Source: Oscillospiraceae bacterium (GTDB lineage Bacteria; Bacillota; Clostridia; Oscillospirales; Ruminococcaceae). Taken from it: a DNA stretch of 64,000 bases. Positions 9,374-12,664 of the stretch are shown one piece after another. Both the position numbers and the translations under genes were made by a program. The notes under the pieces were generated by a model. It saw only the letters and a program-made list of their open reading frames with translations, made no database searches and was not told the DNA's origin. Each line of letters starts with the position of its first letter. The stretch's first letter is position 1. Location: the NCBI GenBank assembly GCA_021769725.1, contig JAETSI010000006.1, forward strand, positions 1-64,000, written 5' to 3'.

Positions 9374-9811
9374 TCATATCGTTTTATGTGGTTCAAGTAT
9401 GGTGGTAAAGTATTCCAAATTTGACGCTTGACTTGGGAAGCCATCTATATGGGGAGCAGTTTGAAGGCTTACGTCGTCAAATTCCTGCGTATGAATATTG
9501 AAAAGTTTCCCCTCGATAATTATTTGATTAGCCATACTTTTCTTAATTGTCAACTTTTTAGGCGAATGAAAATCGTACAAAGCGGCGCTTTTCACCGGAA
9601 TTATAGTATATAGAACCAAAATATTCGTATTCGTAATCGCAGCGAATCCGGAAGCGATTGCTTTTGAACTAAACAATGTTTTTGTTTTAAGGGAAACTCC
9701 GATTGAACACAGCGCTTGCGAAGCGAGGGGAGTCAGCAGCTGGTCAAAACATTTTATCATATTTTCTTCCGTGTAACCGGATATTTTATTTAGTATACCA
9801 AATAAGCCCAT
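9374..9811 (-). CDS. Hypothetical protein, possibly PH-like beta fold
   Basis: This 145-residue protein is soluble, with no signal peptide or membrane segment. It starts MGLFGILNKISGYTEENM, preceded by a weak AGGAGAA site. The middle is rich in beta strands (NILVLYTIIPVKSAALYDF, NQIIIEGKLFNIHT), reminiscent of small bacterial PH-like proteins that begin with a short Gly-Leu-Phe/Phe-Gly leader. I do not recognise a family and the fold is only a guess. It is monocistronic, with a terminator 43 bases after the stop codon. Bases 9812-10053 upstream show no other gene. Confidence 0.5.
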   Translation of the reverse strand: MGLFGILNKISGYTEENMIKCFDQLLTPLASQALCSIGVSLKTKTLFSSKAIASGFAAITNTNILVLYTIIPVKSAALYDFHSPKKLTIKKSMANQIIIEGKLFNIHTQEFDDVSLQTAPHIDGFPSQASNLEYFTTILEPHKTI

Positions 9812-10053
9812 AGAAATTCTCCTGAATTTTGAAACTATTTATAGAGTCTGCGTGCAGATTTTTGAGAATAATTTTGGCGAATGCAAAGCAAAATTATGCA
9901 GTCAGATAACTCACGTCAATACTTTCAACGTAGTAGTCGTCAAAATTTGCCGAAAAGGCAAGCATTTATTTTATGTGATCAAACTCCAAGTTTATTTCAT
10001 TATACTGCAAAACCATTACGTTGTCAAGTTTTTGATTTAATTTGTCTCACATC

Positions 10054-10099: not shown

Positions 10100-10128
10100 T
10101 TGACAAATCCGGCATTGTATGGTATAAT
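10100..10128 (+). promoter_or_regulatory. Consensus sigma-A promoter of the ABC-F gene
   Basis: Perfect TTGACA and TATAAT boxes are separated by 17 bases. The expected transcript start is near 10135, giving a leader of about 210 bases before the ABC-F start codon. Confidence 0.85.
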
Positions 10129-10160
10129 CAAAACATAATTTAAGAATGTGAGGTGGAAAG

Positions 10161-10172
10161 ATGCGTAAGTAA
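10161..10172 (+). CDS. Three-codon upstream ORF (Met-Arg-Lys) in the ABC-F leader
   Basis: ATG CGT AAG TAA follows a GAGGTGG ribosome site at good spacing and is the first start codon in the predicted transcript. It sits before two hairpins with T runs and the resistance-type ABC-F gene. Very short upstream ORFs are known in leaders of inducible ribosome-protection and ABC-F genes, where an antibiotic-stalled ribosome changes the downstream fold. That role here is inferred from layout. Confidence 0.5.
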   Translation: MRK

Positions 10173-10187
10173 TCCTGTATTTATTAA

Positions 10188-10240
10188 GGTATACAAAAAA
10201 TCAGCGGCAGTATTTCTGTCAGTTTTGTTGTACCTTTTTT
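10188..10240 (+). terminator. First leader hairpin with T6 tract
   Basis: GGTATACAAAA pairs imperfectly with TTTTGTTGTACC around an inner GGCAG/CTGTC stem, and TTTTTT follows. It may act as an early terminator or as the part of the leader that refolds when the upstream ORF is stalled. Confidence 0.45.
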
Positions 10241-10294
10241 GCAGGATCAATACGCTTTTCCGTCTGTATATAGGGCAGTTATGCCTCTTTTTGT

Positions 10295-10330
10295 GCAGCC
10301 GCAGGAAACGTATATCCTGCGGCTGTTTTT
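10295..10330 (+). terminator. Attenuator terminator before the ABC-F gene
   Basis: CAGCCGCAGGA and TCCTGCGGCTG form a perfect 11-pair stem with an 8-base loop, then TTTTT. It ends only a few bases before the AAGGAGG site of the ABC-F gene. An upstream segment GCAGGAT (near 10241) can pair with ATCCTGC of the 3' arm, a candidate antiterminator. Confidence 0.75.
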
Positions 10331-10345
10331 GAAGGAGGTAATTAC

Positions 10346-11842
10346 ATGTCATTAATAAATATATCTGATCTGACATTTTCTTATGACGGAAGTTCTGAAA
10401 ATGTTTTTGAAAACGTGAATTTACAGCTTGATACCAACTGGAAATTAGGATTGACCGGACGAAACGGGAGGGGGAAAACTACACTCCTCCGGCTGCTTAC
10501 CGGAGAACTTCGTGGCAGCGGAACTATTTCGTCACAGGTCGAATTTGAGTATTTCCCGTATCCTGTGAAAAATCCGGAGCTGTTTACTATCGACATCATT
10601 CGGGAAATTGCTCCGGAAGCTGACGACTGGGAGATCTATCGTGAAATGTCGCTGCTGAAAATAGGGCGGGATGCGGATTATCAGCAATTCCGCACGCTCT
10701 CAGGTGGTGAACAAGCAAAAGCAATGCTGGCGGGATTATTTCTGCGTAGGAATTCATTTTTGCTTATAGACGAACCTACAGATCATATTGACAGCGAAGG
10801 CAGACGGATTCTTGGACAGTATCTTAGACGGAAAAAAGGATTTATTATTGTATCGCATGACAGAATGCTGCTTGATGAGTGTACCGATCATATTTTGTCA
10901 ATAGACAGATGTGGAATAAGTCTGCAAAAAGGAAATTATTCCGACTGGCAGCGCAGCAAGGATATGCAGGACAGCTTTGAGCTTGCCATGAACGAGAAAC
11001 TGAAAAAGGAAATAAAACATCTTGAAGAAGCGGCAAAACGAACGGCGGAATGGTCGGACAAGGCGGAAAGAGCAAAGATTGGTTTTGATCCGTTGAAAGT
11101 TGAAAAGAGCATATCCAGACGCCCTGGCGAGGCGGCAAAAGCCAAGAAGATAATGTCACGTTCCACTGCTATATCAGAGCGCAGAGAGAAAGCTGTCCGT
11201 GAAAAATCCGGACTGCTGAAAAATATTGAGCAGACGGCAGAACTGAAACTCATGCCTCTTGAATTTCATTCCCGACGGCTTTTACAGCTCGAAAAGATTT
11301 CCCTGAGTTATGGCGGAAGAATTGTTTGCAGCGGCGTTGATCTGACTGTGATGCAGGGGGAGCGGATCGCTCTCACCGGCGGAAACGGATGTGGAAAATC
11401 AAGCATACTGCGGCTCGTCAATGGTGAGAACATTGAACACAGCGGAGTTGTCGTCCGGAACGGTCAGCTGAAAATATCTTATGTTCCGCAGAAAAGCGAT
11501 CATCTTCATGGTTCACTGAGAGAATATGCTGAATTGCTGGGAATAGAAGTCAGCCTATTTTTTGCTGTTCTGAGAAAGCTCGGTTTCTCCCGTGAGCTTT
11601 TTGAGCGTAATATGGCGAGCTTTAGCGCTGGTCAGAAGAAAAAAGTTCTTATAGCAGGAAGCCTATGCGAACGTGCGCATCTTTACATCTGGGATGAACC
11701 GCTGAATTATATTGATATAATTTCACGCATACAGATCGAAAAGCTTATCCTTGAAAGCCGCCCGACAATTATATTTGTCGAACATGATGAGGCTTTCAGA
11801 AAAAAAATTGCAGATAAGGTTATTGAAATCGGAATGAGATAA
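10346..11842 (+). CDS. ABC-F ribosome protection protein, Lsa/Vga/CplR-type
   Basis: This 498-residue soluble protein has two ABC domains and no membrane part. Domain one has Walker A GRNGRGKTT, signature LSGGEQ and Walker B FLLIDEPTDH. A charged helical linker follows at about residues 205-290 (KKEIKHLEEAAKRTAEW). Domain two has GGNGCGKSS, FSAGQKKKVLIAGSL and LYIWDEPLNYID; the FSxGQKKK and WDEPLN forms are typical of antibiotic-resistance ABC-F proteins. Such proteins bind the ribosomal E site and dislodge lincosamides, pleuromutilins and streptogramin A. Specificity lies in the linker tip and cannot be read here. The promoter, Met-Arg-Lys upstream ORF and terminator hairpin point to antibiotic-induced attenuation. 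Confidence 0.85.
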   Translation: MSLINISDLTFSYDGSSENVFENVNLQLDTNWKLGLTGRNGRGKTTLLRLLTGELRGSGTISSQVEFEYFPYPVKNPELFTIDIIREIAPEADDWEIYREMSLLKIGRDADYQQFRTLSGGEQAKAMLAGLFLRRNSFLLIDEPTDHIDSEGRRILGQYLRRKKGFIIVSHDRMLLDECTDHILSIDRCGISLQKGNYSDWQRSKDMQDSFELAMNEKLKKEIKHLEEAAKRTAEWSDKAERAKIGFDPLKVEKSISRRPGEAAKAKKIMSRSTAISERREKAVREKSGLLKNIEQTAELKLMPLEFHSRRLLQLEKISLSYGGRIVCSGVDLTVMQGERIALTGGNGCGKSSILRLVNGENIEHSGVVVRNGQLKISYVPQKSDHLHGSLREYAELLGIEVSLFFAVLRKLGFSRELFERNMASFSAGQKKKVLIAGSLCERAHLYIWDEPLNYIDIISRIQIEKLILESRPTIIFVEHDEAFRKKIADKVIEIGMR

Positions 11843-11890: not shown

Positions 11891-12664
11891 ATGCGAAGAA
11901 AAATATTTCAGTATACAGCAGAAAAATATGATACACAGCCGGAGTATCTCTGGGACAAAACACCGGATGCCGCTGTTCTTCGCCATTCTGACAACAGAAA
12001 GTGGTACGGAATTGTGATGACTGTAGCATATAAGAAGCTCGGACTTGCGGGTGAGGGGAGCATTGATATTCTCAATGTAAAGACCGACCCTCTGCTGGCA
12101 GGCTCGCTGAGGCTCAGAGATGGGATTTTGCCGGGATATCACATGAATAAAGGAAACTGGATAACGCTTCTTCTCGACGGAACACTCGGGGAAGATAATA
12201 TATTTCCGCTTATTGATATGAGTTATGAGCTGACGTCAGGCAGAAAAGTTGGATCCTCTGATAAGTGCAGCAACTGGATAATTCCGGCAAATCCAAAGTA
12301 TTATGACATTGACAGGCATATATCCGAATGCAATGACGGAATATTTCTCTGGAAACAGAGCAGAAGTATGTCGGCAGACAATAACGTCTATATTTATATA
12401 ACCGCTCCGGTGTCCGGCATCAGGTATAAATGCCGTGTATTGGAGACAGATATTCCCTACAGGATGTCCGACGACAATATAAGAATGACAAAGGCGATGC
12501 GCCTTAAATTGCTGAGGCGCTACGATGAACCTGTCAGTCTTGCACATCTCCGGGAACACGGAGTTTTTTCAGTGCGTGGCCCCAGAAGTATGCCGGATAG
12601 TCTTGCACGTGAGCTTGATGACGGTTCCGGATCGGGCAGCGTACCGGAATTTTCAAAAAAATAA
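11891..12664 (+). CDS. YjbR/MmcQ-like protein with a C-terminal EVE-like domain
   Basis: This 257-residue protein has a GAAAGGAAAAGAGG ribosome site. Residues 1-115 match the YjbR/MmcQ pattern (PEYLWDKTPDAAVLRHSDN, RDGILPGYHMNKGNWITLLL, FPLIDMSYELT). Residues about 125-205 (NWIIPANPKYYDID, then VYIYITAPVSGIRYKCRV) resemble an EVE/PUA-type fold. The tail is Gly/Ser-rich and may be disordered. YjbR proteins are small and often called DNA-binding, though their true role is unclear; EVE domains tend to bind modified bases. It starts 48 bases after the ABC-F stop in the same direction and may be cotranscribed. Confidence 0.65.
   Translation: MRRKIFQYTAEKYDTQPEYLWDKTPDAAVLRHSDNRKWYGIVMTVAYKKLGLAGEGSIDILNVKTDPLLAGSLRLRDGILPGYHMNKGNWITLLLDGTLGEDNIFPLIDMSYELTSGRKVGSSDKCSNWIIPANPKYYDIDRHISECNDGIFLWKQSRSMSADNNVYIYITAPVSGIRYKCRVLETDIPYRMSDDNIRMTKAMRLKLLRRYDEPVSLAHLREHGVFSVRGPRSMPDSLARELDDGSGSGSVPEFSKK

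Follow-up and report, generated by a model that had tools for sequence, protein, structure and literature searches.

Three-codon upstream open reading frames (uORFs) are usual for ABC-F genes that confer protection against pleuromutilins, lincosamides and streptogramin A (PMC9226507, PMC10201436, PMC12421871). The vmlR uORF of Bacillus subtilis encodes MIN (PMC9226507; its natural variants are MDN, MDK and MRK, and of these MRK, which occurs in Bacilli, gave induction in B. subtilis vmlR when tested, though weaker than with MIN), that of cplR in Clostridioides difficile encodes MR[I/M] (PMC10201436) and that of are5sc encodes MLV (PMC12421871). Initiation at the uORF and stalling at its start codon by lincosamide, pleuromutilin and streptogramin A drugs have been shown experimentally for vmlR and are5sc (PMC9226507; PMC12421871), with toeprints recording start-codon stalling in are5sc and tiaA (PMC12421871). 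In the cplR leader, which is induced by retapamulin and lincomycin, the terminator hairpin sequesters the cplR Shine–Dalgarno sequence (SD) (PMC10201436). The rli80-hflXr (PMC6310831) and msrD (PMC10314930) leaders of Gram-positive bacteria also use a drug-stalled ribosome on a leader ORF to prevent the terminator, there through longer, macrolide-type peptides and sequence-specific arrest (RLR in rli80).

Within the window (the whole 64-kb stretch of DNA analyzed here), the leader at 10100–10345 precedes a gene (10346–11842, plus strand) for a 498-residue ABC-F ribosomal-protection protein, and very probably acts as a ribosome-sensing transcription attenuator combined with a translational lock over that gene. 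The protein scores above the cut-off of the NCBIfam equivalog ribo_prot_ABC_F (447 vs 380 bits) and best resembles the Lsa family (NCBIfam NF000167), at 647.3 bits against a curated cut-off of 750; we call it Lsa-like, not Lsa. Its closest characterized relative, and best solved one, is Lsa(A) of Enterococcus (7nhk, 403 bits), and because of this kinship with Lsa(A) and the Lsa family it likely protects from lincosamides, pleuromutilins and streptogramin A. The lsaA uORF itself differs, encoding the four-codon MAGN (PMC10201436).

The mechanism we propose, and even the tripeptide, thus have precedent in known leaders. As in vmlR (PMC9226507), a three-codon uORF lies inside an anti-antiterminator stem, an intrinsic terminator is present, the antiterminator carries a pause hairpin at its apex and further structure hides the ABC-F SD; the likeness drawn is one of architecture, and the proteins belong to different ABC-F subfamilies (158 bits with VmlR, 6ha8, vs 403 with Lsa(A)). 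Unlike in vmlR, the uORF stop here runs into the anti-antiterminator arm, and uORFs of six to seven codons are found in relatives. The cplR leader (PMC10201436) resembles ours in its MR[I/M] uORF, in a 5′ hairpin sequestering the uORF and in joint transcriptional and translational attenuation; CplR, however, falls outside the Lsa type (180 bits for the window protein against the CplR model vs 647 against Lsa), and in the window it is CCTCTTTT, upstream of the terminator, that sequesters the SD. In contrast to rli80-hflXr and msrD, the window ORF has only three codons.

Every element that the initial annotation had named in this leader was found in its place, all on the plus strand. What it had called a perfect promoter is a sigma-70-type TTGACA-17-TATAAT (10100–10128) with an extended TG and a 12/12 match, kept in the nearest relatives (L009, L015, L012, L011). 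The uORF, ATG CGT AAG TAA (Met-Arg-Lys, 10161–10172), is preceded by the SD GAGGTGG (10150–10156; its GAGGTG block hardly varies among 32 leaders), and the pattern ATGCGTAARTAA has its single match in the 64-kb window at this site (0.02 expected). In the minimum free energy (MFE) fold, GCGTA (10163–10167, within uORF codons 1–3) pairs with TACGC (10251–10255) as the outer arm of the anti-antiterminator helix. The arm ATCCTGTA (10172–10179) pairs with TGCAGGAT (10240–10247); it contains ATCCTG (10172–10177), a key element absent from the initial list, which overlaps and follows the uORF stop and is the partner of GCAGGAT. Hairpin 1 (10186–10236), the upper part of the anti-antiterminator and a possible pause hairpin, is followed by a T6 tract (10235–10240) and by the antiterminator strand GCAGGAT (10241–10247), whose alternative partners lie at 10172–10178 and 10314–10320. 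Downstream, a pre-terminator hairpin GGGCAgttaTGCCT (10273–10286) forms the apex of the antiterminator and competes for the anti-SD CCTCTTTTT (10284–10292), which in the MFE fold pairs with GAAGGAGG (10331–10338) when the terminator helix is formed. The intrinsic terminator (10295–10330, with an 8-nt loop and U5) is identified by sequence, fold and covariation; its stem (10295–10326) comprises the 11 consecutive Watson–Crick pairs first described plus one outer G–U, making 12 pairs, with T5 at 10326–10330, and its 3′ arm ATCCTGC (10314–10320) is common to the antiterminator helix, as covariation indicates. The ABC-F SD, AAGGAGG, follows at 10332–10338, ahead of the ATG at 10346. The leader elements are far beyond chance, and the region folds with z = −6.6 (none of 200 shuffles being equally stable).

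These elements suggest the following sequence of events. Without drug, the uORF would be initiated and the ribosome released at once; ATCCTG (10172–10177) would then pair with GCAGGAT, allowing the terminator to form and ending transcription near 10330, and any readthrough RNA would hold the ABC-F SD paired to CCTCTTTT. If a drug arrested ribosomes at initiation or immediately after it, one would be parked on ATG CGT AAG, where its footprint would mask ATCCTG; GCAGGAT could now capture the terminator arm ATCCTGC, so that RNA polymerase would read through and the SD be freed. By analogy with the published relatives, which guide our view of drug identity, stalling and induction, the expected inducers are a lincosamide, a pleuromutilin or streptogramin A; we infer the transcription start, the stalling, the inducing drugs and resistance itself.

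To examine the competing helices across relatives, whose loci were taken from public genomes and from the same genus, we anchored four segments in 44 leaders (34 distinct) and used the anchored blocks; the antiterminator segment was placed in 44/44 by a fixed consensus, independently of each leader's own partner. Among the 34 distinct leaders, the anti-antiterminator:antiterminator helix, which joins uORF codons 4–6 (in the relatives' six-codon frame) to GCAGGA, is paired in 94.5% of cells, with double changes in 6/8 pairs, a count free of selection bias; the antiterminator:terminator-3′ helix (94.9%, 5/8 pairs) and the terminator helix (98.9%, 7/8) have counts that are inflated, since the terminator arms and the terminator-3′ register were picked by complementarity. 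No shuffle of 500 reached the observed covariation score for any of the three helices, and no permutation of partners among 5,000 reached the observed pairing, although kinship among the leaders exaggerates the contrast with the shuffles. RNAalifold, given a structure-blind MAFFT alignment of 32 leaders, returned the anti-antiterminator:antiterminator helix as its sole predicted helix. Matched changes are visible in individual leaders (L037, TTTCTTGC/GCAAGAAA; L031, TTTCTCGC/GCGGGAAA; L103, ATTTCTGC/GCAGAAAT). Sequence and covariation thus demonstrate the elements and three mutually exclusive helices (anti-antiterminator, antiterminator and terminator), each backed by covariation, and the role first proposed for GCAGGAT as an antiterminator stands, with its covarying helices to both the ATCCTG arm and the terminator 3′ arm. 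The first hairpin with T6 that the initial annotation had listed is present in the window, but its tract is not conserved as that of a terminator would be: a T-rich tract (at least five T in eight) follows hairpin 1 in 9/44 leaders and the main terminator in 44/44. Hairpin 1 with T6 was rejected on this count as an independent early terminator; from the comparative evidence it belongs to the anti-antiterminator and is not a conserved first terminator.

As in ARE-ABCF attenuators, a short, SD-bearing uORF lies upstream of the ABC-F gene and is conserved in relatives. Where upstream sequence is available, an MRK-stop uORF occurs in 6/6 members of the window clade (the window itself plus L009, L015, L012, L011 and L010, at 92–71% protein identity). 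Among relatives at 53–64% identity, most have six codons in the uORF (for example MRKISC), on nearly the same DNA (AAG ATT TCC TGC TAA vs AAG TAA TCC TGT in the window). Because six-codon uORFs sit on almost the same DNA, the window uORF is best read as a truncation of a longer one. The initial annotation had considered the tripeptide unusually short; three codons are usual in vmlR, cplR and are5sc, and the peptide is short only within its own Clostridia leader family, where six to seven codons (MRKISC-like) are the norm. Comparison of relatives points to truncation having also occurred independently outside the window clade: L095 has its own TGA stop at codon 4 inside a clade of six-codon uORFs, two- and three-codon uORFs recur elsewhere (L169, MR; L146, MRN; Lacrimispora, MKL), and the tree needs three short/long changes, of which the starred branches force at least two. 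This natural variation (six to seven vs three codons, with codon changes matched in the partner strand) offers a clean test of peptide against ribosome position.

That the ribosome senses the nascent Met-Arg-Lys itself, in the manner of RLR-type or other drug-dependent arrest peptides, would accord with the identity of MRK throughout the window clade, yet we consider such peptide-specific attenuation improbable. Codons 2–6 vary widely across the family (MINFSC, MYHFSC, MKTTSC, MRNFSC and others), and separate lineages show a stop shifted to codon 3 or 4 (TGA in L095, TAA in the window clade; also L169 and L146). In the MAFFT alignment, moreover, GCGTA (10163–10167) and TACGC (10251–10255) show compensatory changes in 5/5 pairs, and the SD/start region pairs better with its own than with a swapped partner (20.0 vs 16.5; 0 of 5,000 permutations). 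Since codons 1–3 covary with the downstream strand, Arg-Lys conservation appears to be due at least partly to RNA pairing. Codons 1–3 and 4–6 are themselves, on this covariation, arms of RNA structure, which makes a role for the peptide itself doubtful. As likely as not, in our estimate, is a stronger reading: the uORF would be a mere landing pad, with codons dictated by RNA pairing and an irrelevant peptide, and the switch would report whenever initiation or the first elongation step is blocked. The stop codon would therefore be free to wander anywhere from codon 3 to codon 8, and the module could be moved to other genes.

The length of the leader and its terminator/antiterminator anatomy would also fit a small-molecule riboswitch or a protein-binding antiterminator, with the tiny ORF accidental. 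Against this, however, the uORF SD and start codon are among the most conserved columns, the anti-antiterminator arm begins at the stop codon, within the footprint of a ribosome, and the leader has no conserved aptamer-like core, the upper part of hairpin 1 varying in both length and sequence; an Rfam search of the leader found no family at gathering score (best E 0.24). We regard this explanation as very unlikely, and give equally little credence to a decayed attenuator, in which the gene would be expressed constitutively and the terminator would merely shield it from upstream readthrough. The strength of the terminator and the metastability of the induced fold speak for decay, but the gene's own 12/12 promoter precedes the terminator, which would then silence the gene, and close relatives retain all three helices, including L010, whose leader is interrupted by a repeat. 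The ribosome-mediated attenuation of a resistance-type ABC-F gene that had been proposed at the outset is thus strongly supported by the comparative RNA evidence, although the original reading as a whole holds only in part, given its treatment of peptide length and of hairpin 1.

How a stalled ribosome could throw the ribosome-sensing switch was addressed by thermodynamic folding, from which alone the footprint-driven switch and SD release are predicted. An RNA ending at 10331 folds as anti-antiterminator plus terminator when free, and as antiterminator when 10146–10177 (the expected footprint of a ribosome at the uORF start codon) is blocked; folding alone thus predicts the ARE-ABCF behavior in which the antiterminator is favored once a uORF-bound ribosome masks the anti-antiterminator arm. 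For RNA extended to 10360 with the footprint blocked, the MFE still favors the terminator by 7 kcal/mol (−60.1 vs −52.7). Because this full-length RNA prefers the terminator even with the block, the calculations imply that the decision must be kinetic and co-transcriptional, working only as long as the 3′ end of the nascent RNA is close to the U tract. The computed probability that the ABC-F SD is unpaired is 0.00 in the free leader, where it pairs with CCTCTTTT just upstream of the terminator, and 0.83 with the antiterminator, so that, again as in ARE-ABCF attenuators, an SD hidden in readthrough RNA would be freed on induction. The hidden SD is, on this model, a second, translational lock. 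SD accessibility is higher in the induced fold for 36/44 leaders, and the lock is weaker and not uniform in distant relatives.

A covariance model built from the 5′ half of the leader has one match in the window's genome, the ABC-F leader itself, and matches in 39/299 genomes of its family and 58/394 of its order. Examination of 53 matched loci placed 51 of them ahead of an ABC-F homologue; of the other two, L157 is an orphan and L156 precedes an ABC exporter, which suggests that the attenuator module is transferable between genes. At L156, the leader (uORF MIYVSC plus terminator) is contained in the match's first 120 nt, and the exporter-like gene lies ~290 nt downstream. A plasmid search found no leader, returning just distant lsa(E)-type coding matches (~73% over 189 nt). 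What is new here is a conserved, Clostridia-wide leader family not in Rfam, its truncated uORF form, and the evidence for an RNA-structural role of the uORF codons. Inducible ABC-F control is thereby predicted to extend to Ruminococcus-type gut anaerobes, and the leader family could allow inducible resistance genes to be located from their RNA alone.

Other leaders were noted among more distant ABC-Fs. Those of ~50% identical proteins from the same genus (L111, L113–L117, L065) are of a second type, with uORF MKR, MKL or MKE and a strongly conserved block, TGTTGCCAAAAGTGGATTATGTTCTCATAACCTC, parts of which seem able to pair with TTCACTTTTG, which follows the uORF, and with GAGGTTAT farther on; they probably follow the same logic with other sequences. 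In Lacticaseibacillus (L078, L083), GAAAAGAGTGAAGCCGTTGAAGTAA lies upstream of 40–46% identical ABC-Fs and can be read as a possible two-codon uORF, TTG AAG TAA. Within the window clade, L011 (contig NZ_CALMHT010000160.1, labeled Prevotella) has a 71% identical ABC-F and an intact MRK leader, and is more likely a misbinned Ruminococcus-type contig than a case of transfer.

Downstream of the ABC-F gene, 48 nt past its stop, begins a gene (11891–12664) whose product joins a YjbR domain (Pfam, 64.7 bits) to a long C-terminal extension; from its position, the gene may be co-transcribed and co-induced with the ABC-F. On the other side, a second 12/12 promoter (TTGACA-17-TATAAT, 10027–9999, minus strand) diverges from that of the ABC-F and faces a gene at 9374–9811, whose 145-residue product had no family match in Pfam or NCBIfam. 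The stretch separating this divergent gene from the ABC-F promoter contains a dispersed repeat of ~105 nt (9852–9957), with ~13 more matches in the same genome (copies 68–94% identical). In L010, an element 74.5% similar to this repeat is inserted in the ABC-F leader, between antiterminator and terminator, and the leader keeps MRK and all arms.
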